Assembly: GCA_034231615.1 (NCBI GenBank)
Contig: CM067312.1
Coordinates: 7,934,546 to 7,998,545 of the forward strand
Direction of reading: 5' to 3'
Length of the DNA stretch: 64,000 bases
Source of the DNA: Meghimatium bilineatum
Lineage: Eukaryota > Mollusca > Gastropoda > Stylommatophora > Philomycidae
Part shown: piece by piece, positions 6,180 through 56,155 of the stretch
How positions within the stretch are numbered: position 1 is the stretch's first letter
Layout: each line of letters starts with the position of its first letter
Made by a program: the position numbers and the translations under genes
The notes under the pieces: generated by a model
Told to the model about the DNA's origin: nothing
Databases searched by the model: none
The model's input: the letters and a program-made list of their open reading frames with translations, nothing else

Positions 6180-6435
6180 ACACGGAGAGGAAGAGCAAGG
6201 AAGAGAGGAAGAGCAAGGAGGAGAGGAAGAGCAAGGAGGAGAGGAAGAGCAAGGAGGAGAGGAAGAGCAAGGAAGAGAGGAAGAAGAAGGAGGAGAGGAA
6301 GAAGGAGGAGGAAAGGATAAAGGAGGAGTAGAGAAAGAACAAAGAGGACATTGTGAAGGAGAGGAGAAGAAGTACAAGGAGGAAAGGATGAAGGAGGAGT
6401 TGCGAAAGAACAAAAAGGAGAGGAAGAACAATTAG
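6180..6435. repeat. Polypurine 18-bp tandem array
   Basis: The plus strand is almost purely purine for about 250 bp. Units are GAGGAAGAGCAAGGAGGA-like with an 18-bp period in the first half, then degenerate. Purine strand asymmetry with mirror-like repeats can form triplex DNA; that is inference. The Glu/Lys/Arg-rich and Ser/Leu-rich open frames are compositional. Confidence 0.9.
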
Positions 6436-6530: not shown

Positions 6531-6769
6531 CAGTATATTCTTGTGAAGAGGAAGTGTTCAATATATAACTTGTTATCTTTTATCTCTCTGCTACTCAATT
6601 CTAACCCTGTGGTACTCATGCAGTAGTCATGCAGTAATCTCTTCTTGGCTTCAATGAACACAGAGGCACTTCTTATTACATAATCAGAATGTCGTTTAAT
6701 ATAATTTCAAACCAATGACACAAATCAATATTAAACTCTAGAGTAATTGATATCTCCGAGACGTATAAT

Positions 6770-7025
6770 ATATCATCAATATAAAATGTACAATGTCGAG
6801 ATATTCATAAACTGCTCTAGCACTTCCGTTAAAGGCACACGTTATAACATGAACTTAATGAGATTATAGACTATCTCATTATTCTACTATTTATCTCTAT
6901 GATACTTCACCAATACAAAATGCTAAGGTTTCACAACTATCCTAGCACATCCAGGAATTTGGCGCACGTCGTGGTATAAGCTTAATGAGATTCTAGACCA
7001 TCTCATTAATCTACTACTAATCTCA
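6770..7025. repeat. Diverged 127-bp duplication with conserved hairpin
   Basis: Two diverged halves align at an offset of 127 bp (shared CTAGCAC, GGCxCACGT, CTTAATGAGAT, CATCTCATT, CTACTAxT). Each half keeps a perfect 8-bp inverted repeat AATGAGAT/ATCTCATT with an 8-bp loop, at 6857-6880 and 6984-7007. Confidence 0.7.
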
Positions 7026-9775: not shown

Positions 9776-9813
9776 CGCCAATTAAAGGCGGACGTCTGTA
9801 ACTATACCACTAG

Positions 9814-10089
9814 TCGCCTGTGTGTCGCCGTGGGCCGAAAGGGGAGCAAAGAATAGCAACACTGTTTACCTTCCACGCATGTCGTAAAAGGCGACTAAAG
9901 AGGTTATGGGATGGAGTTGGCTGTCCCATCCCATATAGGGTCAGTGACCCAATGCCATGCTGAAGTCGGATGTGTCAGGCCGAAAGGCGCAGATATCGCA
10001 GCAATGTTGTAAACCATGACACAACGTATTCCGCTCTCTGGACTACATCCTGCTTAGCTGCAGGAGTTTGAGAACGAACGCAGAAGAAG
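9814..10089 (+). mobile_element. Full-length SINE-A with target-site duplication
   Basis: A 276-bp element flanked by a 10-bp direct repeat ATACCACTAG at 9804-9813 and 10090-10099. Order: GCCGAAAGGGGAGCAAAG head, CGTAAAAGGCGACTAAAGAG, GGCTGTCCCATCCCATATAG, GAAGTCGGATGTGTCAGGCC, GCAGGAGTTTGAGAACGAAC and a short GCAGAAGAAG tail. I see no tRNA-like A/B boxes. The middle block resembles the leader of the LINE immediately downstream. Confidence 0.9.
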
Positions 10090-10124
10090 ATACCACTAGA
10101 AGGCCAGACTTAGCGACATTTTTC

Positions 10125-13100
10125 TTATCGAGGCCAGCACCGTGCAGTGGTGATGGGGCTTAGTTCAGCCATCAGGGGCTGGAAACTAAGACGGATCGGG
10201 CAGTCCCACTCGAGCAGGACCATAGTCCTGCCCAAGTAAGCAGAGTGCTGAAGACGGAGGCATCCAGCCAAAAGGCGCACAGATAATCAGAATGCCACGC
10301 ACAAAACACAATGGAAACATGTCTGCATCTAATAATAGTTATGGTGCCTGCCCTGTGGCGGACATTCAGGCAGGGACGGTGCCGGGCCCTATACCTCGAA
10401 AGGGCCCAACCTCAGTTACTGGAAGTCCTTCTCAATTGCCCCGAGGAGCCAGGAGGCAAGGGGACAGAGTTACTGGCCAAACAAACAAACGACCAATAAA
10501 GATAATGCACTGGAATGCTGAGGGTGTCAACAGTAAAAGAGATGGATACAGCAAAAAATTGGAACTTGAACATGTCATCAGTGAAGAACAAGTTAATATA
10601 TGATGTATCCAAGAAACACACCTCAGCAGCGACATAGCCTTCAAAATCAGAGGCTACCAGTGCTACCGGTCTGACAGAAAGGACAGTCGAAAGGGTGGAA
10701 TTCTGACACTTGTTAAAAACAATATCAGCGCATGTCAGCTGGAAGTATATATGGAAGGGGCAGAATACCAGATGCTCCACCTAAAAACAGACAGTGCAGA
10801 ATTCCATCTCCTGAACTATCACTGCCCAAATGATAAACCATTGGCACTAGACACAATTCCAGACAAAGAGAGACGTATGGTATGTGGTGACTTCAACAGC
10901 CACTCTCAGAGCTGGGGCTACGATCATATCGACAAGAGAGGTGAGGAACTTGAGAGCTGGCAGGATGAAAATAATCTCATCCTTATTAACCAGCCAGCAG
11001 ACTCACCAACCTTCTACTCAAGAGCATGGCACACCACCTCTACACCAGACCTGGCATTCCACTCACCAGGCTTGGAATGGAACATCACACGTGTCGTTGG
11101 AAAGCAGCTTGGGGGTAGTGACCACAGACCAGTATTTCTGGAAATCCACAATGAATTTACCAAGGACAGCAGCACGCTCACTAGGTGGAACTATAAAAGG
11201 GCAGACTGGAAAATGTACCAGCATTTAACCAGTGTTCTAGCTAAGGACATGAACTTGGAAAAAGACATCAATAAAGCAGTGAGTGAATTTAATAGATGTA
11301 CACTACATGCTGCTAGTAAAATCATACCCAGGGGGGCACGCAAAAACTACAAACCCTACTGGAATGATGAACTGGAAAAGCTGCAAAATGAGATGGAAAC
11401 ATCTAGACAGCAGGCAGAGAACAGACCTAGCCAAGAACATCACAACAAATATCAGCAAACAAAGGCTAAATTTCAAAGAGCCAAGTTACAAGCCAGACGG
11501 AGCAGCTGGAAAGAAAAAACAGAGTCGCTGAACCTAGAAAGAGATACTAGGAAATTATGGAAACTTGTAAAACAACTAAATGATGAAGGTACAGGGAGAA
11601 ATACCAGGATCACACTTTATAATGATAGAAACATTTTAACAGGTAAACATGCAGCTGATTACTTTGCTGATTCCTTTGCAGAAGACAATAACGTCAAAGT
11701 CAGCCCAGACAAATAACAGGAGGTTCGAGAGAACCAGCAAAACATTGGACAAGGCGAACCTATACCTGAAGTAATAGAGACACCAATCACAATGAGAGAA
11801 CTGGAGCATGCAATATCCAAATTGAAAATGAAAAAGTCCCCTGGAGCTGATAGAGTGTCCAATGAAATGATTAGAAACCTGGGAATTGCAGCAAGAGCAA
11901 AGCTGCTGCAGATCTTTAACACAAGCTGGTCCACAGGTAATGTACCACAGGCATGGAGAGAAGCAATAATGATACCTCTCCTCAAATCAGGAAAAGATGG
12001 CAACACAGTCTCCAACTACAGGCCCATCAGCCTCACAAGCTGTCTATGCAAAACAATAGAACGCATTATCAATCTTAGGATGCAGTGGTACCTTGAAAGT
12101 GAAAACCTTCTGGTATCACAGCAAGCAGGTTTCAGACAGTGCTACTCTACTGAAGATCAGGCAACCTACCTCTCCTAAGAGATTGAGGATGCCTTCCACG
12201 ATAAGAAACTGTTACTAGCAGCATGGATAGACCTCAGGAAAGCATTTGATAAGGTCTGGAAAGAAGGGCTCCTAAAGAAATTGAGAAATTGCAGGGTTAG
12301 CTCAAGAATGTACAAATGGGTAAAAGCATACCTGCATAATAGAAGAGCCAGGGTACAATTAGATGGTCGCAAGAGCATGAAAGTTCTACTGCGTCATGAA
12401 GTCCCCCAGGGAGAAGTCTTGTCATTCACACTTTTTTTGGTTTACATCAATGACCTAGTTGCTGAACTACCACACGGGATCAAAGTGGCAATGTATGCTG
12501 ACGACCTGGTGATCTGGTGCACGGAAGAACATGCAACAGTGGCCATTAAACAAATACAAAGAGCTATCGATGCCCTAACCTTATGGGCAAATAGATGGTG
12601 CGTCAGCATTAACACAGATAAGTGCAGCACTACACTCTTTACCCTCTCATAAAACAAAAAGCTGGTCATATCAAGATAGACGGAGAGCTCTTGAAAGAAG
12701 ACAAACAACCAACATACCTCGGAGTTACTTTTGATAAGTTGACATGGAAGCAGCACATAAGCAAAGCAACAACAAAAGCCAGGAGGAAGTTAGCTATCAT
12801 GAGAAAACTAATTGGAACCACATGGGGAGCCAGTGGAAATATACTCAGTAAAGTTTACCAGCAAGGCATAAGACCACACCTGGAATATGGTTCAGCCGCG
12901 TGGTGTCCTGCATCAAACACCACATTACAAGATCTAGATAAAGTGCTGATAGAATAATGTTGGGAGCAATGAAATCAACACCCATAGCAGAGATGCAGAA
13001 AATGGGAATAATGCAAACACTTGGCGAACGCAGAGACACAAAAGTTCTAATTCAAGCAGAAAAGTTTCAGTGTATGCCAAGTCATCTAATGAAGGAAAGA

Positions 13101-16113: not shown

Positions 16114-16388
16114 GTTGACCATGTTCACTTCCAGGTATTGTAGCTCACCTGTACATAGGCTTCCAACTCTTAACATTTTTTGGTTACTTTAAATTTATCT
16201 TTTCACCTGTCGGTGACCTCGTTCATTAAAGGTCGATGAAGAAGATGCAGCTCAACTTTTAAGTTAAGAGAGTAACAAATACAGTTTTGTTGTGTGTTGT
16301 TGTAGGAGGCCGTCGAAATTTCTGAAAATTGAATGTTTTTGTGTGTGTCATTAGTTGGTTCATTCAAGCTAACATGAGAGGGGGGGGG

Positions 16389-16664
16389 GTCTAATGCATG
16401 AGTGTCTCTGGATGAACTTGAGTGGTCTAATGCACGAGTGTCTCTGGATGAACTTGGGTGGTCTAATGCACGAGTGTCTCTGGATTAACTTGGGTGGTCT
16501 AATGCACGAATGTCTCTGGATGAACTTGAGTGGGTCTAATGCACGAGTGTCTCTGGATTAACTTGGGTGGTCTAATGCACGAATGTCTCTGGATGAACTT
16601 GAGTGGTCTAATGCACGAGTGTCTCTGGATTAACTTGGGTGGTCTAATGCACGAATGTCTCTGA
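16389..16664. repeat. 36-bp tandem repeat, about 7.6 copies
   Basis: The unit is GGTCTAATGCACGAGTGTCT followed by CTGGATGAACTTGAGT. Variants alternate (GATGAACTTGAG versus GATTAACTTGGG, CGAGTG versus CGAATG), hinting at a two- or three-unit higher-order period on the right side. It ends exactly at the head of a SINE-A. Confidence 0.95.
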
Positions 16665-16895
16665 GGCCCGAAAGGTTAGCTCATATTAGCAATACTCTTA
16701 ACTGCCATAATAGTCGTACAAGGCGACTAAAAAGGTTTGGTGGCGGGGTTGGCTGTACCATCCAATAGAGAGTCAAAGTAACGCAGAAGCCATGCTGACG
16801 CTGGATGTGTCAGGTCGGATGACGCAGATTTGGTAGATAAGCTGTAAACCATTACTTAACATATTTCCTTATCTGGACCACATACTGGACCACCT
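16665..16895 (+). mobile_element. SINE-A, interrupted by its own amplified segment
   Basis: The head GAGGCCCGAAAGG is followed by AGTCGTACAAGGCGACTAAA, GGCGGGGTTGGCTGTACCAT, GCCATGCTGACGCTGGATGT and AAGCTGTAAACCATTA. At the CTGGACTACATCCTG position of the family the sequence turns into the 15-bp array at 16880. The normal GCAGGAGTTTGAGAACG tail is absent. Confidence 0.8.
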
Positions 16896-17095
16896 AATGA
16901 ACTGTATCCTGGACTACCTCCTGGACTATATCTTGGACCACATCCTGGATCACATCCTGGACCACATCCTGGATCACATCCTGGACTACTTCCTGTACTA
17001 CATCCTGCACAACATCCTGGATTACATCATGGACCACATTCTGGACTACATTATAGACCACATCCTGGATCAAATCTTGGACTACATGCTGCCAA
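16880..17095. repeat. 15-bp CTGGAcCACATCcTG array seeded in SINE-A
   Basis: About 14 imperfect copies of CTGGAYYACATCCTG with an internal half-unit period. The same 15-mer (CTGGACTACATCCTG) is present once in the SINE-A copies at 9814 and 55820. A Leu/Asp/His/Tyr-rich open frame spans it and is an artefact. Confidence 0.9.
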
Positions 17096-28314: not shown

Positions 28315-28970
28315 TTTTATATGTTCATCTTCTACATTCTCAAACTCCTGCAGAATATCAAGATATAGTCCATAGAAGGGAATGCATAGCGCCATGATAT
28401 AAAACTTGACTGATCTGCAACTCTCGTCTTGAGATATTCTACGTCAGTATGGCTTCTAGCTCACTTCGAACCTCTCTATTATATTCTACGTCAGTATGGC
28501 TTCTAGCTCACTTCGAACCTCTCTATTATATTCTACGTCAGTATGGCTTCTAGCTCACTTCGAACCTCTCTATTATATTCTACGTCAGTATGGCTTCTAG
28601 CTCACTTCGAACCTCTCTATTATATTCTACGTCAGTATGGCTTCTAGCTCACTTCGAACCTCTCTATTATATTCTACGTCAGTATGGCTTCTAGCTCACT
28701 TCGAACCTCTCTATTATATTCTACGTCAGTATGGCTTCTAGCTCACTTCGAACCTCTCTATTATATTCTACGTCAGTATGGCTTCTAGCTCACTTCGAAC
28801 CTCTCTATTATATTCTACGTCAGTATGGCTTCTAGCTCACTTCGAACCTCTTTATTATAGGACAGCTAACCAACACTACCATAACACTCTTTGTCGTCTA
28901 ATACGACATGTATGGCAGGCAGAATGTCACTAATCTTTGCTCCTCTTTCGGGTCTCTGCGGAACACGGGC
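28315..28970 (-). mobile_element. Full-length SINE-A carrying nine copies of a 47-bp internal segment
   Basis: The minus strand begins GCCCGTGTTCCGCAGAGACC, CGAAAGAGGAGCAAAG, passes ACGACAAAGAGTGTTATGG and GTTAGCTGTCCTATAATAAA, then enters nine 47-bp units, each equal to the family block GGGTCAAAGTGACCCAGAAG plus CCATGCTGAAGT. It exits into GTTTTATATCATGGCGCTAT, CTGCAGGAGTTTGAGAATGT and AGAAGATG. Subtracting eight extra units leaves about 280 bp, the normal SINE-A length. Confidence 0.9.
28436..28858. repeat. 47-bp array inside SINE-A, 9 copies
   Basis: The unit is ATTCTACGTCAGTATGGCTT, then CTAGCTCACTTCGAACCTCT and CTATTAT. Copies appear identical except at the right edge (CTCTTTATT). Confidence 0.98.
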
Positions 28971-28989: not shown

Positions 28990-29180
28990 ACAACACCGAT
29001 GTCGGATATGTCTGGTCCTTGATGCAAAAAAACACTATGGACACAATGCATGTCCGTTTTCTGGACGGCACCCTGCTGGAAATCTAGTATGGCTATTTTT
29101 CTGCTATAAGAGAGATCGAGTGGGAGTTTGAGAACATTGTCCTGCTACAAGAGAGATTCAGTGGGAGTTTGAAAACAAAT
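28990..29180 (+). mobile_element. SINE-A 3' half with duplicated tail
   Basis: GATGTCGGATATGTCTGGTC, CCCTGCTGGAAATC, then CTATAAGAGAGATCGAGTGG with GAGTTTGAGAACA, and a second copy (CTACAAGAGAGATTCAGTGG, GAGTTTGAAAACA) about 41 bp later. This is an early-stage tail duplication. Confidence 0.7.
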
Positions 29181-30492: not shown

Positions 30493-30502
30493 AATTCAAT
30501 CA

Positions 30503-30603
30503 TCGACACCATACAGCAATCCTGCGATCCTTACAGCAAATCTGCGACACCTTACAGCAATCATGCGACACCTTACAGCAATCCTGCGACACCTTACAGC
30601 AAT
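30503..30603. repeat. 21-bp tandem repeat, about 4.8 copies
   Basis: The unit is TTACAGCAATCCTGCGACACC. It directly follows the RTE relic's 3' end. Confidence 0.9.
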
Positions 30604-31273: not shown

Positions 31274-32384
31274 ATCTTCTTCTTCTGCTTTCAGCATCTG
31301 TGATCATGTTGTATTGTCAGGCCCGTCGTCAAGACGAAGTCCACTGTCTTCTCCAGGTCGGAGCGGCTGCACCGTAGCTTTTGTCTCAAGTCTGTATCCT
31401 CTGGCCAGGTCTGCTGTCTCTGCTCTTTGTATGTTGGGCAGTCCTGAAGTATGTGTTCTGGGGTCTTGGTTCCGGATCCACATGGACATTCATCTGTGTA
31501 TGAGATCCTCAATCGGTAAAGGTGACCCAACAGTCTGCAGTAGCCTGTTATAAGGCGAAATATTGCGGTCTGTTGATATCTTTGGAGGAGATGTATTGCA
31601 TCATGTTTGTCTTCCCCTTCCATTTTTTTCTTCCACTTTGCTGTGTATGTGTTCTGGATTATTGTTTTTGCTTCTCCGTAAGACAGTGGTTGTCTGTGGT
31701 GCTCCATTTCACTTCCTGCTTTTGACAGAGCATCCGCTTTCTCATTTCCCATGATTCCACAGTGTGATGATATCCATTGAAGGACAATAACTGATGATTT
31801 TTAGATCTGTCAGCTCATGTCTGATGTTGTGCAGAGGACTTTCGTTTCTGTTGCTCTGGATTGATTCCAGTAGGGATCTGCAATCTGTCAATATGGCTAT
31901 CTTCTTTGGTCTTGGTAGTCCTGATTCGGTGAAGGATTTCAGTGCTTGATGGAGTGCAACTGCTTCTGCTCTAAGATTAGAGGAGTATTTCCCAGTTGGA
32001 AGAACATTTGATATTGTCTTCCCATCTTTGAGTCTTATAAAAATTCCACTTTCTCCATTCCTTACTGCTCCTTCTGCCGATCTATCTGTGTAGACATGTG
32101 TCCATTCCTTGGGATTGTATTTTATTTCTATCATCTCTAGTGTCAATGCTTTTAGTTGAGGTGGAGTTTGGTATTTCTTATTAATTATTCCAGGAACCTG
32201 TGTTATTATGGAGAAATTTTGGAGACTATTGTCTCGCTCTTCAAAGTCCGTTAGTGTTTCAATTTCATTTGGGCGGTTTGTGAGGATATCTTTATGTTGT
32301 TGATGGAGATGGTTGGAGATGTGACAGAAGCTGGTTATCTTCAGCCTGCTTATGGTTGATCTAGAAATTTGCGCATGCATCGAT
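31274..32384 (-). pseudogene. LINE fragment with RNase H domain
   Basis: A 5'-truncated copy of a LINE related to the one at 10125. The minus strand encodes THVYTDRSAEGAVRNG, SSNLRAEAVALHQALKS, AILTDCRSLLES and, after a frameshift near 31795, LQWISSHCGIMGNEKADALS. All four RNase H acidic residues remain. It ends with FRLITGYCRLLGHLYRLRIS, the Cys/His segment CPCGSGTKTPEHILQDCP, and a GAAGAAGAAGAT tail at 31274. It is less decayed than the full-length copy. Confidence 0.88.
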
Positions 32385-32662
32385 GGTTTTCATTCATTCA
32401 TTTTCCTTTTGCGCTGAAGTTAGCGCATAAGGCAGAGGTCAGATCTCTCCAATTTTGTCTGTTCGAAGCTATTATGTACAGTTCTTGAATAGTATGAATA
32501 TTGGTTGTTTTACTTTCTTTAAGTATTGTTCTTCTGAGTGTTTCATTTGGTCTACCCCTTGCTCTTTTGCCTGTTGGTATCCATTCAAGAGATTGGTGGT
32601 GTATTCTGTTGGTGTCTGCGTGTAGGACCTGTCCGATGTAGGACCAACGGCGTTTTATGAAA
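32385..32662 (-). pseudogene. RTE-like RT C-terminus with TGAA tail
   Basis: The minus strand gives RRWSYIGQVLHADTNRIHHQ, SLEWIPTGKRARGRPNETLR, RTILKESKTTNIHTIQELYI and NRQNWRDLTSALCANFSAKGK with a stop at the expected end, then an AATGAATGAATGAAAA tail. The frame appears intact from RRWSY to the stop. Family features are GKRxRGRPxxTxRRT and NRxxWRxLxxALC. It directly abuts the 5' end of the RNase H LINE fragment. Confidence 0.88.
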
Positions 32663-35289: not shown

Positions 35290-35574
35290 AACACGCATAC
35301 AGCCCTGAGTGCTAACAATGGTAATAGTTGTAATCTAATAGTATTGGTGGTGATAGTAGTAATGTAATAGTTTTAGTGGTGATAGTACTGAATTTACTAG
35401 TAGTAATGGTAAAGGTAGAAGTGGTAATAGTAAGTATGGAAAAAATGATTAACAGTAATATTAGTAATGTAATAGTATTAGTGATTATAGTAGCAATAGT
35501 AAAAGTAGTAATGGTAGAAGTTGTATTGGTAATAGCATTAGTAGTGATAATAATTGTTTGTAGTGGTAGTGGTA
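35290..35574. repeat. Degenerate GTA/TAG-rich flank of the giant array
   Basis: Loose ATAGTAGTAATGGTAATAG words with no fixed unit. It grades into the ordered array at 35575 and probably represents old, unhomogenised repeats. Confidence 0.85.
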
Positions 35575-38500
35575 GCAATAGTAGTAGTGTTATTGGTAGC
35601 AATAGTTGTATTACTGGTAGCAATAGTTGTATTACTGGTAGCAATAGTAGTAGTGTTATTGGTAGCAATAGTAGTAGTAGTGGTAGCAATAGTAGTAGTG
35701 TTATTGGTAGCAATAGTAGTAGTGTTATTGGTAGCAATAGTAGTAGTGTTATTGGTAGCAATAGTAGTAGTAGTGGTAGCAATAGTTGTAGTGTTATTGG
35801 TAGCAATAGTAGTAGTAGTGATAGCAATAGTAGTAGTGTTATTGGTAGCAATAGTAGTAGTGTTATTGGTAGCAATAGTAGTAGTAGTGATAGCAATAGT
35901 AGTAGTGTTATTGGTAGCAATAGTAGTAGTAGTGGTAGCAATAGTAGTAGTGTTATTGGTAGCAATAGTAGTAGTAGTGATAGCAATAGTAGTAGTGTTA
36001 TTGGTAGCAATAGTAGTAGTGTTATTGGTAGCAATAGTAGTAGTAGTGATAGCAATAGTAGTAGTGTTATTGGTAGCAATAGTAGTAGTAGTGATAGCAA
36101 TAGTTGTAGTGTTATTGGTAGCAATAGTAGTAGTGTTATTGGTAGCAATAGTAGTAGTAGTGGTAGCAATAGTAGTAGTGTTATTGGTAGCAATAGTAGT
36201 AGTGTTATTGGTAGCAATAGTAGTAGTAGTGATAGCAATAGTTGTAGTGTTATTGGTAGCAATAGTAGTAGTGTTATTGGTAGCAATAGTAGTAGTAGTG
36301 ATAGCAATAGTAGTAGTGTTATTGGTAGCAATAGTAGTAGTGTTATTGGTAGCAATAGTAGTAGTGTTATTGGTAGCAATAGTAGTAGTAGTGATAGCAA
36401 TAGTTGTAGTGTTATTGGTAGCAATAGTAGTAGTAGTGATAGCAATAGTTGTAGTGTTATTGGTAGCAATAGTAGTAGTGTTATTGGTAGCAATAGTAGT
36501 AGTAGTGATAGCAATAGTAGTAGTGTTATTGGTAGCAATAGTAGTAGTAGTGATAGCAATAGTAGTAGTGTTATTGGTAGCAATAGTAGTAGTAGTGATA
36601 GCAATAGTAGTAGTGTTATTGGTAGCAATAGTAGTAGTGTTATTGGTAGCAATAGTAGTAGTAGTGGTAGCAATAGTAGTAGTGTTATTGGTAGCAATAG
36701 TAGTAGTAGTAGTGATAGCAATAGTAGTAGTGTTATTGGTAGCAATAGTAGTAGTGTTATTGGTAGCAATAGTAGTAGTAATGATAGCAATAGTAGTAGT
36801 GTTATTGGTAGCAATAGTAGTAGTAGTGATAGCAATAGTAGTAGTGTTATTGGTAGCAATAGTAGTAGTGTTATTGGTAGCAATAGTAGTAGTAGTGATA
36901 GCAATAGTAGTAGTGTTATTGGTAGCAATAGTAGTAGTAGTGGTAGCAATAGTAGTAGTGTTATTGGTAGCAATAGTAGTAGTAGTGATAGCAATAGTAG
37001 TAGTGTTATTGGTAGCAATAGTAGTAGTGTTATTGGTAGCAATAGTAGTAGTAGTGGTAGCAATAGTAGTAGTGTTATTGGTAGCAATAGTAGTAGTAGT
37101 GATAGCAATAGTAGTAGTGTTATTGGTAGCAATAGTAGTAGTAGTGATAGCAATAGTAGTAGTGTTATTGGTAGCAATAGTAGTAGTGTTATTGGTAGCA
37201 ATAGTAGTAGTAGTGATAGCAATAGTAGTAGTGTTATTGGTAGCAATAGTAGTAGTAGTGATAGCAATAGTAGTAGTGTTATTGGTAGCAATAGTAGTAG
37301 TAGTGATAGCAATAGTAGTAGTGTTATTGGTAGCAATAGTAGTAGTAGTGATAGCAATAGTAGTAGTGTTATTGGTAGCAATAGTAGTAGTAGTGATAGC
37401 AATAGTAGTAGTGTTATTGGTAGCAATAGTAGTAGTGTTATTGGTAGCAATAGTAGTAGTAGTGATAGCAATAGTAGTAGTGTTATTGGTAGCAATAGTA
37501 GTAGTGTTATTGGTAGCAATAGTAGTAGTAGTGATAGCAATAGTAGTAGTAGTGATAGCAATAGTAGTAGTAGTGATAGCAATAGTAGTAGTAGTGATAG
37601 CAATAGTAGTAGTAGTGATAGCAATAGTAGTAGTGTTATTGGTAGCAATAGTAGTAGTAGTGATAGCAATAGTAGTAGTGTTATTGGTAGCAATAGTAGT
37701 AGTAGTGATAGCAATAGTAGTAGTGTTATTGGTAGCAATAGTAGTAGTAGTGATAGCAATAGTAGTAGTGTTATTGGTAGCAATAGTAGTAGTAGTGATA
37801 GCAATAGTAGTAGTGTTATTGGTAGCAATAGTAGTAGTGTTATTGGTAGCAATAGTAGTAGTAGTGATAGCAATAGTAGTAGTGTTATTGGTAGCAATAG
37901 TAGTAGTAGTGATAGCAATAGTAGTAGTGTTATTGGTAGCAATAGTAGTAGTAGTGATAGCAATAGTAGTAGTGTTATTGGTAGCAATAGTAGTAGTGTT
38001 ATTGGTAGCAATAGTAGTAGTAGTGGTAGCAATAGTAGTAGTGTTATTGGTAGCAATAGTAGTAGTAGTGATAGCAATAGTAGTAGTGTTATTGGTAGCA
38101 ATAGTAGTAGTGTTATTGGTAGCAATAGTAGTAGTAGTGATAGCAATAGTAGTAGTGTTATTGGTAGCAATAGTAGTAGTAGTGATAGCAATAGTAGTAG
38201 TGTTATTGGTAGCAATAGTAGTAGTGTTATTGGTAGCAATAGTAGTAGTAGTGATAGCAATAGTAGTAGTGTTATTGGTAGCAATAGTAGTAGTAGTGGT
38301 AGCAATAGTAGTAGTGTTATTGGTAGCAATAGTAGTAGTAGTGATAGCAATAGTAGTAGTGTTATTGGTAGCAATAGTAGTAGTGTTATTGGTAGCAATA
38401 GTAGTAGTAGTGGTAGCAATAGTAGTAGTGTTATTGGTAGCAATAGTAGTAGTAGTGATAGCAATAGTAGTAGTGTTATTGGTAGCAATAGTAGTAGTGT

Positions 38501-41500
38501 TATTGGTAGCAATAGTAGTAGTAGTGGTAGCAATAGTAGTAGTGTTATTGGTAGCAATAGTAGTAGTAGTGATAGCAATAGTAGTAGTGTTATTGGTAGC
38601 AATAGTAGTAGTGTTATTGGTAGCAATAGTAGTAGTAGTGATAGCAATAGTTGTAGTGTTATTGGTAGCAATAGTAGTAGTAGTGATAGCAATAGTAGTA
38701 GTGTTATTGGTAGCAATAGTAGTAGTGTTATTGGTAGCAATAGTAGTAGTAGTGATAGCAATAGTAGTAGTGTTATTGGTAGCAATAGTAGTAGTAGTGG
38801 TAGCAATAGTAGTAGTGTTATTGGTAGCAATAGTAGTAGTAGTGATAGCAATAGTAGTAGTGTTATTGGTAGCAATAGTAGTAGTGTTATTGGTAGCAAT
38901 AGTAGTAGTAGTGATAGCAATAGTAGTAGTGTTATTGGTAGCAATAGTAGTAGTAGTGATAGCAATAGTTGTAGTGTTATTGGTAGCAATAGTAGTAGTG
39001 TTATTGGTAGCAATAGTAGTAGTAGTGGTAGCAATAGTAGTAGTGTTATTGGTAGCAATAGTAGTAGTAGTGATAGCAATAGTTGTAGTGTTATTGGTAG
39101 CAATAGTAGTAGTGTTATTGGTAGCAATAGTAGTAGTAGTGGTAGCAATAGTAGTAGTGTTATTGGTAGCAATAGTAGTAGTAGTGATAGCAATAGTAGT
39201 AGTGTTATTGGTAGCAATAGTAGTAGTGTTATTGGTAGCAATAGTAGTAGTAGTGATAGCAATAGTAGTAGTGTTATTGGTAGCAATAGTAGTAGTAGTG
39301 ATAGCAATAGTAGTAGTGTTATTGGTAGCAATAGTAGTAGTGTTATTGGTAGCAATAGTAGTAGTAGTGATAGCAATAGTAGTAGTGTTATTGGTAGCAA
39401 TAGTAGTAGTAGTGATAGCAATAGTAGTAGTGTTATTGGTAGCAATAGTAGTAGTAGTGGTAGCAATAGTAGTAGTGTTATTGGTAGCAATAGTAGTAGT
39501 AGTGGTAGCAATAGTAGTAGTGTTATTGGTAGCAATAGTAGTAGTAGTGATAGCAATAGTAGTAGTGTTATTGGTAGCAATAGTAGTAGTGTTATTGGTA
39601 GCAATAGCAGTAGTAGTGGTAGCAATAGTTGTAGTGTTATTGGTAGCAATAGTAGTAGTAGTGGTAGCAATAGTAGTAGTGTTATTGGTAGCAATAGTAG
39701 TAGTAGTGATAGCAATAGTAGTAGTGTTATTGGTAGCAATAGTAGTAGTAGTGATAGCAATAGTAGTAGTGTTATTGGTAGCAATAGTAGTAGTAGTGAT
39801 AGCAATAGTAGTAGTGTTATTGGTAGCAATAGTAGTAGTAGTGATAGCAATAGTAGTAGTGTTATTGGTAGCAATAGTAGTAGTAGTGGTAGCAATAGTA
39901 GTAGTGTTATTGGTAGCAATAGTAGTAGTAGTGGTAGCAATAGTAGTAGTGTTATTGGTAGCAATAGTAGTAGTAGTGATAGCAATAGTAGTAGTGTTAT
40001 TGGTAGCAATAGTAGTAGTAGTGATAGCAATAGTAGTAGTGTTATTGGTAGCAATAGTAGTAGTGTTATTGGTAGCAATAGTAGTAGTAGTGGTAGCAAT
40101 AGTTGTAGTGTTATTGGTAGCAATAGTAGTAGTAGTGATAGCAATAGTAGTAGTGTTATTGGTAGCAATAGTAGTAGTAGTGATAGCAATAGTAGTAGTG
40201 TTATTGGTAGCAATAGTAGTAGTAGTGATAGCAATAGTAGTAGTGTTATTGGTAGCAATAGTAGTAGTGTTATTGGTAGCAATAGTAGTAGTAGTGGTAG
40301 CAATAGTAGTAGTGTTATTGGTAGCAATAGTAGTAGTAGTGGTAGCAATAGTAGTAGTGTTATTGGTAGCAATAGTAGTAGTAGTGGTAGCAATAGTTGT
40401 AGTGTTATTGGTAGCAATAGTAGTAGTAGTGATAGCAATAGTAGTAGTGTTATTGGTAGCAATAGTAGTAGTAGTGATAGCAATAGTAGTAGTGTTATTG
40501 GTAGCAATAGTAGTAGTGTTATTGGTAGCAATAGTAGTAGTAGTGGTAGCAATAGTTGTAGTGTTATTGGTAGCAATAGTAGTAGTGTTATTGGTAGCAA
40601 TAGTAGTAGTAGTGGTAGCAATAGTTGTAGTGTTATTGGTAGCAATAGTTGTAGTGTTATTGGTAGCAATAGTAGTAGTAGTGGTAGCAATAGTAGTAGT
40701 GTTATTGGTAGCAATAGTTGTAGTGTTATTGGTAGCAATAGTTGTAGTGTTATTGGTAGCAATAGTTGTAGTAGTGGTAGCAATAGTAGTAGTAGTGGTA
40801 GCAATAGTAGTAGTAGTGGTAGCAATAGTAGTAGTAGTGGTAGCAATAGTTGTAGTGTTATTGGTAGCAATAGTTGTAGTGTTATTGGTAGCAATAGTAG
40901 TAGTAGTGGTAGCAATAGTTGTAGTAGTGGTAGCAATAGTAGTAGTAGTGGTAGCAATAGTTGTAGTGTTATTGGTAGCAATAGTTGTAGTGTTATTGGT
41001 AGCAATAGTAGTAGTAGTGGTAGCAATAGTTGTAGTGTTATTGGTAGCAATAGTAGTAGTAGTGGTAGCAATAGTAGTAGTAGTGGTAGCAATAGTAGTA
41101 GTAGTGGTAGCAATAGTAGTAGTAGTGGTAGCAATAGTTGTAGTGTTATTGGTAGCAATAGTTGTAGTGTTATTGGTAGCAATAGTAGTAGTAGTGGTAG
41201 CAATAGTTGTAGTGTTATTGGTAGCAATAGTAGTAGTAGTGGTAGCAATAGTAGTAGTGTTATTGGTAGCAATAGTAGTAGTGTTATTGGTAGCAATAGT
41301 AGTAGTAGTGATAGCAATAGTAGTAGTGTTATTGGTAGCAATAGTAGTAGTAGTGGTAGCAATAGTTGTAGTGTTATTGGTAGCAATAGTAGTAGTGTTA
41401 TTGGTAGCAATAGTAGTAGTGTTATTGGTAGCAATAGTAGTAGTAGTGGTAGCAATAGTTGTAGTGTTATTGGTAGCAATAGTAGTAGTGTTATTGGTAG

Positions 41501-44500
41501 CAATAGTAGTAGTGTTATTGGTAGCAATAGTAGTAGTAGTGGTAGCAATAGTTGTAGTGTTATTGGTAGCAATAGTAGTAGTAGTGGTAGCAATAGTAGT
41601 AGTGTTATTGGTAGCAATAGTAGTAGTAGTGGTAGCAATAGTTGTAGTGTTATTGGTAGCAATAGTAGTAGTGTTATTGGTAGCAATAGTAGTAGTAGTG
41701 ATAGCAATAGTTGTAGTGTTATTGGTAGCAATAGTTGTAGTAGTGGTAGCAATAGTTGTAGTGTTATTGGTAGCAATAGTAGTAGTGTTATTGGTAGCAA
41801 TAGTAGTAGTAGTGATAGCAATAGTTGTAGTGTTATTGGTAGCAATAGTTGTAGTGTTATTGGTAGCAATAGTAGTAGTAGTGGTAGCAATAGTTGTAGT
41901 GTTATTGGTAGCAATAGTTGTAGTGTTATTGGTAGCAATAGTAGTAGTGTTATTGGTAGCAATAGTAGTAGTAGTGGTAGCAATAGTTGTAGTGTTATTG
42001 GTAGCAATAGTAGTAGTAGTGGTAGCAATAGTTGTAGTGTTATTGGTAGCAATAGTAGTAGTAGTGGTAGCAATAGTAGTAGTGTTATTGGTAGCAATAG
42101 TAGTAGTAGTGGTAGCAATAGTTGTAGTGTTATTGGTAGCAATAGTAGTAGTAGTGATAGCAATAGTAGTAGTGTTATTGGTAGCAATAGTAGTAGTAGT
42201 GGTAGCAATAGTTGTAGTGTTATTGGTAGCAATAGTAGTAGTAGTGGTAGCAATAGTTGTAGTGTTATTGGTAGCAATAGTAGTAGTAGTGATAGCAATA
42301 GTAGTAGTGTTATTGGTAGCAATAGTAGTAGTAGTGATAGCAATAGTAGTAGTGTTATTGGTAGCAATAGTAGTAGTAGTGATAGCAATAGTAGTAGTAG
42401 TAGTGGTAGCAATAGTAGTAGTAGTGGTAGCAATAGTTGTAGTGTTATTGGTAGCAATAGTTGTAGTGTTATTGGTAGCAATAGTAGTAGTAGTGGTAGC
42501 AATAGTAGTAGTGTTATTGGTAGCAATAGTAGTAGTGTTATTGGTAGCAATAGTAGTAGTAGTGGTAGCAATAGTAGTAGTGTTATTGGTAGCAATAGTA
42601 GTAGTGTTATTGGTAGCAATAGTAGTAGTAGTGGTAGCAATAGTTGTAGTGTTATTGGTAGCAATAGTAGTAGTGTTATTGGTAGCAATAGTAGTAGTGT
42701 TATTGGTAGCAATAGTAGTAGTAGTGGTAGCAATAGTTGTAGTGTTATTGGTAGCAATAGTAGTAGTAGTGGTAGCAATAGTAGTAGTGTTATTGGTAGC
42801 AATAGTAGTAGTGTTATTGGTAGCAATAGTAGTAGTAGTGGTAGCAATAGTAGTAGTGTTATTGGTAGCAATAGTAGTAGTAGTGGTAGCAATAGTAGTA
42901 GTGTTATTGGTAGCAATAGTAGTAGTGTTATTGGTAGCAATAGTAGTAGTAGTGGTAGCAATAGTAGTAGTGTTATTGGTAGCAATAGTAGTAGTAGTGG
43001 TAGCAATAGTTGTAGTGTTATTGGTAGCAATAGTAGTAGTAGTGGTAGCAATAGTAGTAGTGTTATTGGTAGCAATAGTAGTAGTGTTATTGGTAGCAAT
43101 AGTAGTAGTAGTGGTAGCAATAGTTGTAGTGTTATTGGTAGCAATAGTAGTAGTAGTGGTAGCAATAGTAGTAGTAGTGGTAGCAATAGTTGTAGTGTTA
43201 TTGGTAGCAATAGTTGTAGTGTTATTGGTAGCAATAGTAGTAGTAGTGGTAGCAATAGTAGTAGTGTTATTGGTAGCAATAGTAGTAGTGTTATTGGTAG
43301 CAATAGTAGTAGTAGTGGTAGCAATAGTAGTAGTGTTATTGGTAGCAATAGTAGTAGTGTTATTGGTAGCAATAGTAGTAGTAGTGATAGCAATAGTTGT
43401 AGTGTTATTGGTAGCAATAGTTGTAGTAGTGGTAGCAATAGTTGTAGTGTTATTGGTAGCAATAGTAGTAGTGTTATTGGTAGCAATAGTAGTAGTAGTG
43501 ATAGCAATAGTTGTAGTGTTATTGGTAGCAATAGTAGTAGTGTTATTGATAGCAATAGTAGTAGTAGTGATAGCAATAGTTGTAGTGTTATTGGTAGCAA
43601 TAGTAGTAGTGTTATTGGTAGCAATAGTTGTAGTGTTATTGGTAGCAATAGTTGTAGTGTTATTGGTAGCAATAGTTGTAGTGTTATTGGTAGCAATAGT
43701 TGTAGTGTTATTGGTAGCAATAGTTGTAGTGTTATTGGTAGCAATAGTTGTAGTGTTATTGGTAGCAATAGTTGTAGTGTTATTGGTAGCAATAGTTGTA
43801 GTGTTATTGGTAGCAATAGTTGTAGTGTTATTGGTAGCAATAGTTGTAGTGTTATTGGTAGCAATAGTTGTAGTGTTATTGGTAGCAATAGTTGTAGTGT
43901 TATTGGTAGCAATAGTTGTAGTGTTATTGGTAGCAATAGTTGTAGTGTTATTGGTAGCAATAGTTGTAGTGTTATTGGTAGCAATAGTTGTAGTGTTATT
44001 GGTAGCAATAGTTGTAGTGTTATTGGTAGCAATAGTTGTAGTGTTATTGGTAGCAATAGTTGTAGTGTTATTGGTAGCAATAGTTGTAGTGTTATTGGTA
44101 GCAATAGTTGTAGTGTTATTGGTAGCAATAGTTGTAGTGTTATTGGTAGCAATAGTTGTAGTGTTATTGGTAGCAATAGTTGTAGTGTTATTGGTAGCAA
44201 TAGTTGTAGTGTTATTGGTAGCAATAGTTGTAGTGTTATTGGTAGCAATAGTTGTAGTGTTATTGGTAGCAATAGTAGTAGTAGTGATAGCAATAGTTGT
44301 AGTGTTATTGGTAGCAATAGTAGTAGTAGTGGTAGCAATAGTTGTAGTGTTATTGGTAGCAATAGTTGTAGTGTTATTGGTAGCAATAGTAGTAGTGTTA
44401 TTGGTAGCAATAGTAGTAGTAGTGGTAGCAATAGTTGTAGTGTTATTGGTAGCAATAGTAGTAGTGTTATTGGTAGCAATAGTAGTAGTAGTGGTAGCAA

Positions 44501-47500
44501 TAGTAGTAGTGTTATTGGTAGCAATAGTAGTAGTAGTGATAGCAATAGTAGTAGTGTTATTGGTAGCAATAGTAGTAGTAGTGATAGCAATAGTAGTAGT
44601 GTTATTGGTAGCAATAGTAGTAGTAGTGATAGCAATAGTAGTAGTGTTATTGGTAGCAATAGTAGTAGTAGTGATAGCAATAGTAGTAGTAGTAGTGTTA
44701 TTGGTAGCAATAGTAGTAGTAGTGATAGCAATAGTAGTAGTGTTATTGGTAGCAATAGTAGTAGTAGTGGTAGCAATAGTTGTAGTGTTATTGGTAGCAA
44801 TAGTAGTAGTAGTGATAGCAATAGTTGTAGTGTTATTGGTAGCAATAGTAGTAGTGTTATTGGTAGCAATAGTAGTAGTGTTATTGGTAGCAATAGTAGT
44901 AGTGTTATTGGTAGCAATAGTAGTAGTAGTGGTAGCAATAGTTGTAGTGTTATTGGTAGCAATAGTAGTAGTGTTATTGGTAGCAATAGTAGTAGTGTTA
45001 TTGGTAGCAATAGTAGTAGTGTTATTGGTAGCAATAGTAGTAGTGTTATTGGTAGCAATAGTAGTAGTGTTATTGGTAGCAATAGTAGTAGTGTTATTGG
45101 TAGCAATAGTAGTAGTGTTATTGGTAGCAATAGTAGTAGTGTTATTGGTAGCAATAGTAGTAGTAGTGGTAGCAATAGTTGTAGTGTTATTGGTAGCAAT
45201 AGTAGTAGTGTTATTGGTAGCAATAGTAGTAGTGTTATTGGTAGCAATAGTTGTAGTAGTGGTAGCAATAGTAGTAGTGTTATTGGTAGCAATAGTAGTA
45301 GTGTTATTGGTAGCAATAGTAGTAGTAGTGGTAGCAATAGTAGTAGTGTTATTGGTAGCAATAGTAGTAGTAGTGGTAGCAATAGTAGTAGTGTTATTGG
45401 TAGCAATAGTAGTAGTGTTATTGGTAGCAATAGTTGTAGTAGTGATAGCAATAGTAGTAGTGTTATTGGTAGCAATAGTAGTAGTGTTATTGGTAGCAAT
45501 AGTAGTAGTAGTGGTAGCAATAGTAGTAGTGTTATTGGTAGCAATAGTTGTAGTGTTATTGGTAGCAATAGTTGTAGTGTTATTGGTAGCAATAGTTGTA
45601 GTGTTATTGGTAGCAATAGTTGTAGTGTTATTGGTAGCAATAGTTGTAGTGTTATTGGTAGCAATAGTTGTAGTGTTATTGGTAGCAATAGTTGTAGTGT
45701 TATTGGTAGCAATAGTTGTAGTGTTATTGGTAGCAATAGTTGTAGTGTTATTGGTAGCAATAGTTGTAGTGTTATTGGTAGCAATAGTTGTAGTGTTATT
45801 GGTAGCAATAGTTGTAGTGTTATTGGTAGCAATAGTTGTAGTGTTATTGGTAGCAATAGTTGTAGTGTTATTGGTAGCAATAGTTGTAGTGTTATTGGTA
45901 GCAATAGTTGTAGTGTTATTGGTAGCAATAGTTGTAGTGTTATTGGTAGCAATAGTTGTAGTGTTATTGGTAGCAATAGTTGTAGTGTTATTGGTAGCAA
46001 TAGTTGTAGTGTTATTGGTAGCAATAGTTGTAGTGTTATTGGTAGCAATAGTTGTAGTGTTATTGGTAGCAATAGTTGTAGTGTTATTGGTAGCAATAGT
46101 TGTAGTGTTATTGGTAGCAATAGTTGTAGTGTTATTGGTAGCAATAGTTGTAGTGTTATTGGTAGCAATAGTTGTAGTGTTATTGGTAGCAATAGTAGTA
46201 GTAGTGATAGCAATAGTTGTAGTGTTATTGGTAGCAATAGTAGTAGTAGTGGTAGCAATAGTTGTAGTGTTATTGGTAGCAATAGTTGTAGTGTTATTGG
46301 TAGCAATAGTAGTAGTGTTATTGGTAGCAATAGTAGTAGTAGTGGTAGCAATAGTTGTAGTGTTATTGGTAGCAATAGTAGTAGTGTTATTGGTAGCAAT
46401 AGTAGTAGTAGTGGTAGCAATAGTAGTAGTGTTATTGGTAGCAATAGTAGTAGTAGTGATAGCAATAGTAGTAGTGTTATTGGTAGCAATAGTAGTAGTA
46501 GTGATAGCAATAGTAGTAGTGTTATTGGTAGCAATAGTAGTAGTAGTGATAGCAATAGTAGTAGTGTTATTGGTAGCAATAGTAGTAGTAGTGATAGCAA
46601 TAGTAGTAGTAGTAGTGTTATTGGTAGCAATAGTAGTAGTAGTGATAGCAATAGTAGTAGTGTTATTGGTAGCAATAGTAGTAGTAGTGGTAGCAATAGT
46701 TGTAGTGTTATTGGTAGCAATAGTAGTAGTAGTGATAGCAATAGTTGTAGTGTTATTGGTAGCAATAGTAGTAGTGTTATTGGTAGCAATAGTAGTAGTG
46801 TTATTGGTAGCAATAGTAGTAGTGTTATTGGTAGCAATAGTAGTAGTAGTGGTAGCAATAGTTGTAGTGTTATTGGTAGCAATAGTAGTAGTGTTATTGG
46901 TAGCAATAGTAGTAGTGTTATTGGTAGCAATAGTAGTAGTGTTATTGGTAGCAATAATAGTAGTGTTATTGGTAGCAATAGTAGTAGTGTTATTGGTAGC
47001 AATAGTAGTAGTGTTATTGGTAGCAATAGTAGTAGTGTTATTGGTAGCAATAGTAGTAGTGTTATTGGTAGCAATAGTAGTAGTAGTGGTAGCAATAGTT
47101 GTAGTGTTATTGGTAGCAATAGTAGTAGTGTTATTGGTAGCAATAGTAGTAGTGTTATTGGTAGCAATAGTTGTAGTAGTGGTAGCAATAGTAGTAGTGT
47201 TATTGGTAGCAATAGTAGTAGTGTTATTGGTAGCAATAGTAGTAGTAGTGGTAGCAATAGTAGTAGTGTTATTGGTAGCAATAGTAGTAGTAGTGGTAGC
47301 AATAGTAGTAGTGTTATTGGTAGCAATAGTAGTAGTGTTATTGGTAGCAATAGTTGTAGTAGTGATAGCAATAGTAGTAGTGTTATTGGTAGCAATAGTA
47401 GTAGTGTTATTGGTAGCAATAGTAGTAGTAGTGGTAGCAATAGTAGTAGTGTTATTGGTAGCAATAGTAGTAGTAGTGATAGCAATAGTAGTAGTGTTAT

Positions 47501-48286
47501 TGGTAGCAATAGTAGTAGTAGTGATAGCAATAGTAGTAGTGTTATTGGTAGCAATAGTAGTAGTAGTGGTAGCAATAGTAGTAGTGTTATTGGTAGCAAT
47601 AGTAGTAGTGTTATTGATAGCAATAGTAGTAGTGTTATTGGTAGCAATAGTAGTAGTAGTGGTAGCAATAGTAGTAGTGTTATTGGTAGCAATAGTAGTA
47701 GTGTTATTGGTAGCAATAGTAGTAGTGTTATTGGTAGCAATAGTAGTAGTGTTATTGGTAGCAATAGTAGTAGTAGTGGTAGCAATAGTAGTAGTGTTAT
47801 TGGTAGCAATAGTAGTAGTGTTATTGGTAGCAATAGTAGTAGTAGTGGTAGCAATAGTAGTAGTGTTATTGGTAGCAATAGTAGTAGTAGTGGTAGCAAT
47901 AGTAGTAGTGTTATTGGTAGCAATAGTAGTAGTAGTGATAGCAATAGTAGTAGTGTTATTGGTAGCAATAGTAGTAGTAGTGATAGCAATAGTAGTATTG
48001 TTATTGGTAGCAATAGTTGTATTACTGGTAGCAATAGTTGTATTACTGGTAGCAATAGTTGTATTACTGGTAGCAATAGTTATATTACTGGTAGCAATAG
48101 TTGCATTACTGGTAGCAATAGTTGCATTACTGGTAGCAATAGTTGTATTACTGGTAGAAATAGTTGTATTACTGGTAGCAATAGTTGTATTACTGGTAGC
48201 AATAGTTGTATTACTGGTAGCAATAGTTGTATTACTGGTAGCAATAGTTGTATTACTGGTAGCAATAGTTGTATTACTGGTAGCAA
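35575..48286. repeat. 12.7-kb array of 21- and 24-bp GTA-rich units
   Basis: Two unit classes alternate. One is 24 bp, GGTAGCAATAGTAGTAGTG plus TTATT; the other 21 bp, (G/A)RTAGCAATAGTAGTAGTAGT-like. Variants are zoned: GATAGC units dominate up to about 40.5 kb, GGTAGC with TTG variants at 40.5-43.6 kb, two homogeneous GTTGTAGTG blocks of about 27 units (43.6-44.27 and 45.54-46.19 kb), and 21-bp ...TTGTATTACT units at both outer edges. Two plus frames and two minus frames each stay open for more than 4,250 codons. Four simultaneous open frames follow from the unit composition, so none is called a gene. Confidence 0.98.
43624..47463. repeat. 1,920-bp tandem segmental duplication within the giant array
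   Basis: Sequence from about 43624 to 45543 repeats at 45544-47463 with an offset of exactly 1,920 bp (80 x 24). In the stretches I compared, the only difference noticed is G at 45037 versus A at 46957. Each copy includes one homogeneous block and one mixed block, so the duplication postdates that block's homogenisation. Confidence 0.85.
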
Positions 48287-50789: not shown

Positions 50790-52208
50790 CACAAACACGT
50801 AGGTTAGTTCAGATGAACGACTCAAATTAGCCCAGATAAACGACTCAAATTAGCCCAGATAAACGACTCAAGTTAGCCCAGATGAATAACCTGTCAGCCC
50901 ACAGGAACAACTCAATTTAGTCCAGATGAACGACTCAAGTTAGCCCAGATGAATGACTCAGTTAGCCCAGTAGAATGACTCAAGTTAACCCAGATGAATG
51001 ACTCAGATGAACGACTCAAGTTAGCCCAGATGAATGACTCAGATGACCGACTCAAGTTAGCCCAGATGAATGACTCAAGTTAGCCCAGATGAATTACTTA
51101 AATAACGTCTCACGTTAGCCCAGATGAATGACTCGTTAGCCCAGATGAATGACTCAAGTTAGCCCAGATGAATGACTCAGAAGAACGACTCAAGTTAGCC
51201 CAGATGAATGACTCAGAAGAACGACTCAAGTTAGCCCAGATGAATGACTCAGAAGAACGACTCAAGTTAACCCAGATGAATGACTCAGATGAACGACTCA
51301 AGTTAGCCCAGATAAATGACTTAGTTCAGCCTAGATGAATGACATGTCAGTCCAGAAGAATGACTCAAGTTAGCCAAGATGAATGACTCAGATCAGATAA
51401 ACAACTCAAGTTAGTCCAGATGAATGACTCAGATCAGATAAACGACTCAAGTTAGTACAGATGAATGACTCAAGTTAGCCCAGATGAATGACTCAGATCA
51501 GATAAACGACTCAAGTTAGCCCAGATGAATGACTCAGATCAGATAAACGACTCAAGTTAGTCCAGATGAATGACTCAGATCAGATAAACGAATCAAGTTA
51601 GCCCAGATGAATGACTCAGATCAGATAAACGACTCAAGTTAGTCCAGATGAATGACTCAAGTTAGCCCAGATGAATGACTCAGATCAGATAAACAACTCA
51701 AGTTAGTCCAGATGAATGACTCAGATCAGATAAATGACTCAAGTTAGCCCAGATGAATGACCCAGATCAGATAAACGACTCAAGTTAGTACAGATGAATG
51801 ACTCAAGTTAGCCCAGATGAATGACTCAGATCAGATAAACGACTCAAGTTAGCCCAGATGAATGACTCAGATCAGATAAACGACTCAAGTTAGTCCAGAT
51901 GAATGACTCAGATCAGATAAACGAATCAAGTTAGCCCAGATGAATGACTCAGATCAGATAAACGACTCAAGTTAGCCCAGATGAACGATTCAGGTTAGCC
52001 AAGATGAATGACTCAAGTTAGCCCAGATGTATGACTCAAGTTAGCCCAGATGAATGACTCAAGTTAGCCCAGATGAATGACTCAAGTTAGCCCAGATGAA
52101 TGACTCAAGTTAGCCCAGATTAATGACTCAAGTTAGCTCAGATGAATGACTTAGTTCAGCCCAGATGAATGACATGTCAGCCCAGATGAATGACTCAAGT
52201 TAGTAATA
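50790..52208. repeat. Composite 23/41-bp array
   Basis: The basic unit is GACTCAAGTTAGCCCAGATG plus AAT (23 bp). In the centre (51370-51970) it alternates with an 18-bp GACTCAGATCAGATAAAC insert, giving a 41-bp period, and pairs of these form a longer period. Left and right flanks keep the simple 23-bp unit. Confidence 0.93.
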
Positions 52209-55756: not shown

Positions 55757-56155
55757 ATATACGAGATATTCAACACAAGGAAGCTCACAGATGTAATGAC
55801 GTATTATTATATACTAGATCGCCCGCGTGTTGCCTGGGCCCGAAAGGGGAGCAAAGAATAACAACACTGTTTACCTTCCACTCATGTCATAAAAGACGAC
55901 TAAGGAGGTTATGGGATGGAGTTGGCTGTCCCATCCCATATAAGGTCAGTGACCCAAAGCCATGCTGAAGTCGAATGTGTCAGGCCGAAAGGCGTAGATA
56001 TCGCAGCAATGCTGTAAACCATGACACAGCGCATTCCATTCTCTGGACTACATCCTGCTAATCTGCAGGAGTTTAGGAATGAACGCGGAAGAAGAAGATA
56101 TACTAGATATTCAACATAAGTAAGATCACAGATGTAAGAACGTATTATTATACGC
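55757..56155. repeat. Roughly 56-bp tandem duplication split by a SINE-A
   Basis: AGATATTCAACACAAGGAAG, then CTCACAGATGTAATGACGTA and TTATTATATACT (55761-55815) recurs at 56105-56153 with a few changes. Removing the SINE-A and one copy of its duplication restores two head-to-tail units. Confidence 0.8.
55820..56097 (+). mobile_element. Full-length SINE-A with 11-bp target-site duplication
   Basis: A 278-bp element flanked by ATATACTAGAT at 55809-55819 and 56098-56108. It starts CGCCCGCGTGTTGCCTGGGC and CCGAAAGGGGAGCAAAG and ends GGAGTTTAGGAATGAACGCG with GAAGAAGAAG. It is very similar to the copy at 9814, consistent with recent spread of this subfamily. Confidence 0.92.

Follow-up and report, generated by a model that had tools for sequence, protein, structure and literature searches.

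Tandem repeats that have grown within retroposons are already well documented in primates, rodents and reptiles, and the locus described here adds one case. Alu elements carry a Pol III head derived from 7SL. The 2006 work of Jurka and Gentles is cited in connection with Alu-derived human minisatellites, and that of Bois from 1998 is said, going by its cited title, to concern the instability of a mouse B1-derived VNTR. For the human genome, the passage of PMC3389668 drawn on here counts 2663 Alu-derived repeats, describes 17 units of 52 bp within an AluJo, and gives relative abundances of 0.18 for AluJ, 0.24 for AluS and 0.40 for AluY, figures that carry no unit in that passage and that were obtained with stricter filters. 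As at our locus, these are a retroposon's own internal stretch in tandem, at single loci (PMC3389668, same passage); they belong to another element family, whereas here the element is that of a mollusc and no Pol III head was found in it. An excerpt of PMC6947457 names minisatellites derived from Alu, B1 and LTR sequences and sets out the slippage model; the mouse B1-derived VNTR (Bois 1998, via PMC6947457) is likewise an array arisen in a SINE, though with a short unit, GGCAGA in the table of that paper, against 47 bp here. The SINE-derived satellites of squamate reptiles, so far as the consulted sections of PMC10702118 describe them, also have units from part of a SINE and adjoin SINE ends; in most variants the terminal unit at one end exceeds the others in length, and some stand at many loci with up to 1000 units, whereas here there is one locus, with nine units and both ends of the element. 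Among the papers listed in a limited literature search, none dealt by its title with gastropod arrays derived from SINEs, and three short conserved strings of the family treated below were not found in the literature searched by sequence.

The array lies in the window, that is, the whole 64,000-nucleotide stretch of Meghimatium bilineatum DNA under analysis, inside one copy of an element called SINE-A. The whole copy runs on the minus strand from 28970 to 28324 and has these parts, in the order of the element:

28857..28970, minus strand: 5' part of the SINE-A copy, consensus ~2-115 (85/112 aligned bases match the consensus)
28434..28856, minus strand: minisatellite of nine tandem 47-bp units, each corresponding to SINE-A consensus 116-162
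28324..28433, minus strand: 3' part of the same SINE-A copy, consensus ~163-280 (86/110 aligned bases match the consensus), with a decayed GAA-rich tail at its end

The sequence-only reading had described this as a SINE-A whose internal 47-bp block stands in nine copies, and the count agrees with both ways of obtaining it: TRF calls period 47 at 28434-28859, with 9.1 copies and 99% matches, and cutting the array yields nine whole 47-mers, head-to-tail. Eight of them are identical; the lone variant, which is the first in SINE orientation, has a single-base change, giving 1 difference in 423 bp overall. A head-to-tail array of 47 bp x 9.1 falls within what is called a minisatellite (unit of about 10-100 bp). 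The 20-mer singled out in the same reading, allowed 3 mismatches, is present in 9/9 units and in four further places in the window, 13 matches as against 0.01 expected in shuffles. That the count of nine was produced by the assembly, the true array being shorter or longer, is very improbable: near-identical tandem units are easily mis-assembled, but this array is just 423 bp long, one edge unit has a distinguishing base, and several units would be present whether or not nine is exact.

The descent of the unit from the element was examined with two descriptions of the family. A first SINE-A profile, for which seven copies of the window other than the target were used, matches the target locus at 28951-28812(-) (model 1-139, E 9e-17) and again at 28475-28335(-) (model 100-244, E 4e-19); the stretch of the model covered by both matches is the 47-bp unit. 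The 283-bp consensus comes from 28 near full-length copies, found in the window and in a 200-kb sample of the same assembly. On it, the unit aligns without gaps at 116-162, with 32/47 bases identical, far above shuffles (0/1000 simple shuffles score as well), and among the 209 TRF rows compared with SINE-A (unit length 15-120 bp) it is the top match (z 7.6; 0/200 dinucleotide-preserving shuffles equal). The array unit is thus recognizably the SINE's own stretch, as had been claimed from the letters of the window.

Versions of the target with 0 to 9 units were each searched against the SINE-A family. With one unit kept there is a single full-length alignment of 154.6 bits and 75.5% identity; with none it splits in two (59.6 + 48.3 bits), and with 2 to 9 there are two main pieces (88.1 + 81.0 bits). 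The array is accordingly framed, in order, by the rest of the same element, the flanks being consecutive parts joined by exactly one unit, as the earlier statement that both SINE ends are present in order requires; removal of eight units leaves ~271 bp, close to the ~280 bp that had been given. The one-unit test and the shuffles together exclude the two outcomes that the sequence-only reading had set against itself, namely flanks from different elements and a unit that aligns no better to SINE-A than to random genomic sequence.

They bear in the same way on the notion that a SINE inserted in or beside an older, unrelated minisatellite whose likeness to the SINE is fortuitous. Such an arrangement does exist in this genome: at L018 6014-6611 a copy of SINE-B, a related family with its 3' part common to SINE-A, has inserted (6253-6401) inside a 33-bp minisatellite, with ATATATCAAAAC on either side, as any insertion into that array would leave it. 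Closeness of SINE and array is therefore no proof of descent; what counts is a match of the unit itself, and the target shows one. There the unit fills, gapless, exactly the SINE stretch that is absent between the flanks, 0/1000 shuffles equal its score, and the one-unit test already contradicts a chance likeness, so that we give this explanation hardly any weight. Another nested insertion was seen at L017 6563-6963, where an oppositely oriented SINE-B (6695-6837) splits a SINE-A copy.

SINE-A is a short interspersed multi-copy element, with 62 profile matches in 264 kb. Young copies near 9813-10095 and 55817-56103 end in (GAA)n and are bounded by target-site duplications of 10 and 11 bp, which is what a retroposon should show; at the target copy no such duplication is clear. 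A search of the window for tRNAs gave none, the Rfam search of the window gave no match at gathering score, and one young copy searched against Rfam at E up to 10 gave nothing relevant (a single irrelevant match, E 7). The best box B in the consensus is 7/11, and a box-A-like match of 10/11 lies at consensus 166, mid-consensus and not near the 5' end. A diverged Pol III head could escape these tests. Since no tRNA-, 7SL- or 5S-derived head was found, the family is best called SINE-like, SINE-A being kept as the original label: the retroposon side of that name holds in the duplications and tails of two copies, the Pol III side found no counterpart, and the assignment is provisional. LINE remains are also present in the window, at 10604-12649 on the plus strand (neighbouring open stretches that encode endonuclease and reverse transcriptase domains) and at 31745-32389 on the minus strand (an RNase H domain). 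Elsewhere, the haemocyanin domain PF14830, which is typical of molluscs, matches 50 places in the assembly and none in 14 control genomes, which marks the host as a mollusc; two dense groups of these matches, at C15 ~48.69-49.24 Mb and C22 ~44.15-44.27 Mb, suggest haemocyanin gene clusters.

The target copy is old. Its K2P distance from the consensus is ~0.30, more than that of 23 of the 28 near full-length copies (range 0.046 to 0.46). The nine units have the decay of this copy in common, yet they scarcely differ from one another, which means that they multiplied after the decay or have been kept alike by conversion. When the whole 656-bp locus, C15:7962860-7963515, was searched against the 1.61-Gb assembly, the array was covered at its own locus only, among 40 scored of 1402 candidates; the remaining 49 matches comprise element ends and at most about one unit of the array. 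With the array at no other scored locus, growth in place is favoured over spread from a repeated master copy. An array that formed in a master copy and was then retroposed as a SINE subfamily has a parallel, in that the Discussion of PMC10702118, in the portion consulted, mentions amplifying SINEs with internal duplications; its absence from all other scored loci (again 40 of 1402 candidates), and the different units and different borders of the other expanded SINE copies, leave it only a slender chance, if a shade more than the two alternatives above. The array, then, either expanded in place and late or was homogenized, two histories that one assembly cannot separate. The phrase "minisatellite being born", used in the sequence-only reading, would fit the low divergence among the units, on which it depends.

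The locus consists of one element and one block, in nine near-identical units that share the decay of the copy. Our preferred reading, to which we give a probability of roughly 0.93, is that a SINE-like copy inserted, decayed, and then had an internal 47-bp stretch duplicated in place until there were nine, making a private minisatellite. In this sequence of events the retroposon would have inserted on the minus strand and decayed to ~75% identity with the family consensus before the stretch at consensus 116-162 was duplicated where it lay. The first duplication may have been a slippage or short-homology event, TAT being found at both borders; because the borders of the duplicated segment have just these 3 bp in common, little above chance, slippage at a short direct repeat is something that we infer. 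Later growth to nine could have come about by further slippage, unequal exchange or gene conversion, any of which may also maintain the likeness of the units. Counting against the preferred reading, besides these short borders and the unclear target-site duplication of this copy, the unit is slightly more diverged from the consensus (32/47) than the flanks are (171/222).

Other multi-unit SINE copies, which the sequence-only reading had proposed to look for in SINE-A, were found both in a sample and by searching the assembly. The 200-kb sample consists of 20 random 10-kb stretches (L009-L028) from parts of 20 of the 32 contigs, and is not uniform. It holds 65 chained elements (38 SINE-A and 27 SINE-B), at least 5 of which look like two wrongly joined elements, so that the true count is nearer 70. 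Four of the 65 contain an array of their own sequence, each beating 1000/1000 shuffles:

L012 2614-3472: SINE-B self-derived array, 40 bp x 19.0
L017 8121-8534: SINE-B self-derived array, 39 bp x 7.6
L022 3907-4319: SINE-B self-derived array, 33 bp x 9.3
L026: SINE-A self-derived array, 48 bp x 2.3

Own-sequence repeats are present in three of the 14 elements of the window: the target, the SINE-A copy at 16641-16889 and a SINE-B at 28996-29180. The last is in head-to-head orientation to the target, with the two 5' ends turned towards each other, and its 3' part is present twice, as recognized by profile alone (TRF makes no call even at score 30). The second SINE-A copy is set out as follows:

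16641-16889 (region 16384-17091): second SINE-A copy, preceded on the 5' side by a 36-bp x 7.8 array and followed on the 3' side by a 12-bp x 18.2 array

Its 12-bp unit is SINE sequence (0/300 shuffles equal); the 36-bp unit matches no better than shuffles, and that array was not taken as SINE-derived. When 225 units were compared with both families, six arrays stood at z of at least 5.4, namely the four of the sample, the target and the 12-bp array. Weaker matches, with 0/200 shuffles equal and z of 3.3 to 4.4 among 450 comparisons, were not counted as SINE-derived:

window 51165-51300: weaker array
L017 9557-9758: weaker array
L023 118-175: weaker array
window 30497-30603: weaker array

Also set aside was a 32 bp x 4.3 array at L025, which separates two parts of a single SINE-A; its unit matches neither family.

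The assembly was searched with five 45-bp blocks of the SINE-A consensus, each repeated x4, and 40 candidates were scored per block. Tandem loci numbered 1, 0, 2, 0 and 1 of the 40 for the five blocks, four additional loci in total:

L029: 30 bp x 18.9, SINE-A flanking the array on both sides
L030/L036: 29 bp x 16.2, SINE-A flanking the array on both sides
L034: 54 bp x 9.4, array reaching the edge of the piece, so that one side is seen
L035: 38 bp x 2.6, SINE-A flanking the array on both sides

The first of these aligns best with one unit (162.0 bits; 123.1 without any unit, 92.6 + 80.3 if two are kept), and so does the second (138.7 bits, as against 121.7 with none and 112.5 with two), an extra 5' piece of 48.4 bits remaining separate. 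The target locus is one of several such cases in this genome. Of the four loci, two came from the block of the sequence-only reading and two from others, too few for a hot spot there to be accepted; the search with the fifth block also gave a pair of matches at C2:6217587 and 6217824, separated by 237 bp. Three further loci that seemed to hold slightly over one unit (L031, L032 and L033) are ordinary copies, the last with just an 8-bp duplication. The four SINE-B expansions (L012, L017, L022 and window 28996-29180) all overlap model ~82-140, a region partly missing from SINE-A that contains a second TCCTGCT; a short direct repeat built into it might seed expansions.

The surroundings of SINE copies were also compared. 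The counts took fragments and not elements, and used only those of at least 25 bits that include a 3' end. Among 3'-complete fragments in the window, an array lies within 150 bp on the 3' side in 7/12 and on the 5' side in 1/12; in the random sample the same counts are 9/50 and 14/47. A pooled test, which included the window that had prompted the idea, gave 13/60 within 100 bp on the 3' side vs 5.6 expected (p 0.001) and 8 within 50 bp on the 5' side vs 3.2 expected (p 0.017). Seeding of minisatellites downstream of SINE 3' ends was rejected, as the asymmetry of the window was not repeated in the random sample, where fractions of 0.18 (3') and 0.30 (5') of the SINE fragments have an array within 150 bp, vs 0.087 of random points. 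Tandem arrays are abundant there: 102 loci (period at least 8 bp, at least 2 copies) cover 39,612 of 200,000 bases, about a fifth. The window itself has a 12.7-kb array at 35560-48286, with periods of 24, 45 and 114 bp, GTAGTGTTATTGGTAGCAATA-like units and a strong GC skew of ~0.74 along its length.

A single locus contributes little; it is the apparent frequency, four of 65 elements in the 200-kb sample (or of ~70 if the doubtful chains are split), that could matter. The abundance figures for human Alus would agree with a total of about a million Alu copies if they are read as per cent. Frequency, at several per cent of copies, is the one respect in which the present case could go beyond what is documented, differing filters and a small sample allowing no firm comparison with human Alus yet. 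Tentatively, and at somewhat less than even odds, this mollusc may convert short retroposons to minisatellites at an unusually high rate, involving several per cent of SINE-A and SINE-B copies, with retroposons as a steady seed of arrays. If the difference survives equal filters, the genome would offer a large set of minisatellites that arose independently within one template whose sequence is known, and the starting step (unit length, borders and age of the template) would then be open to statistical study.
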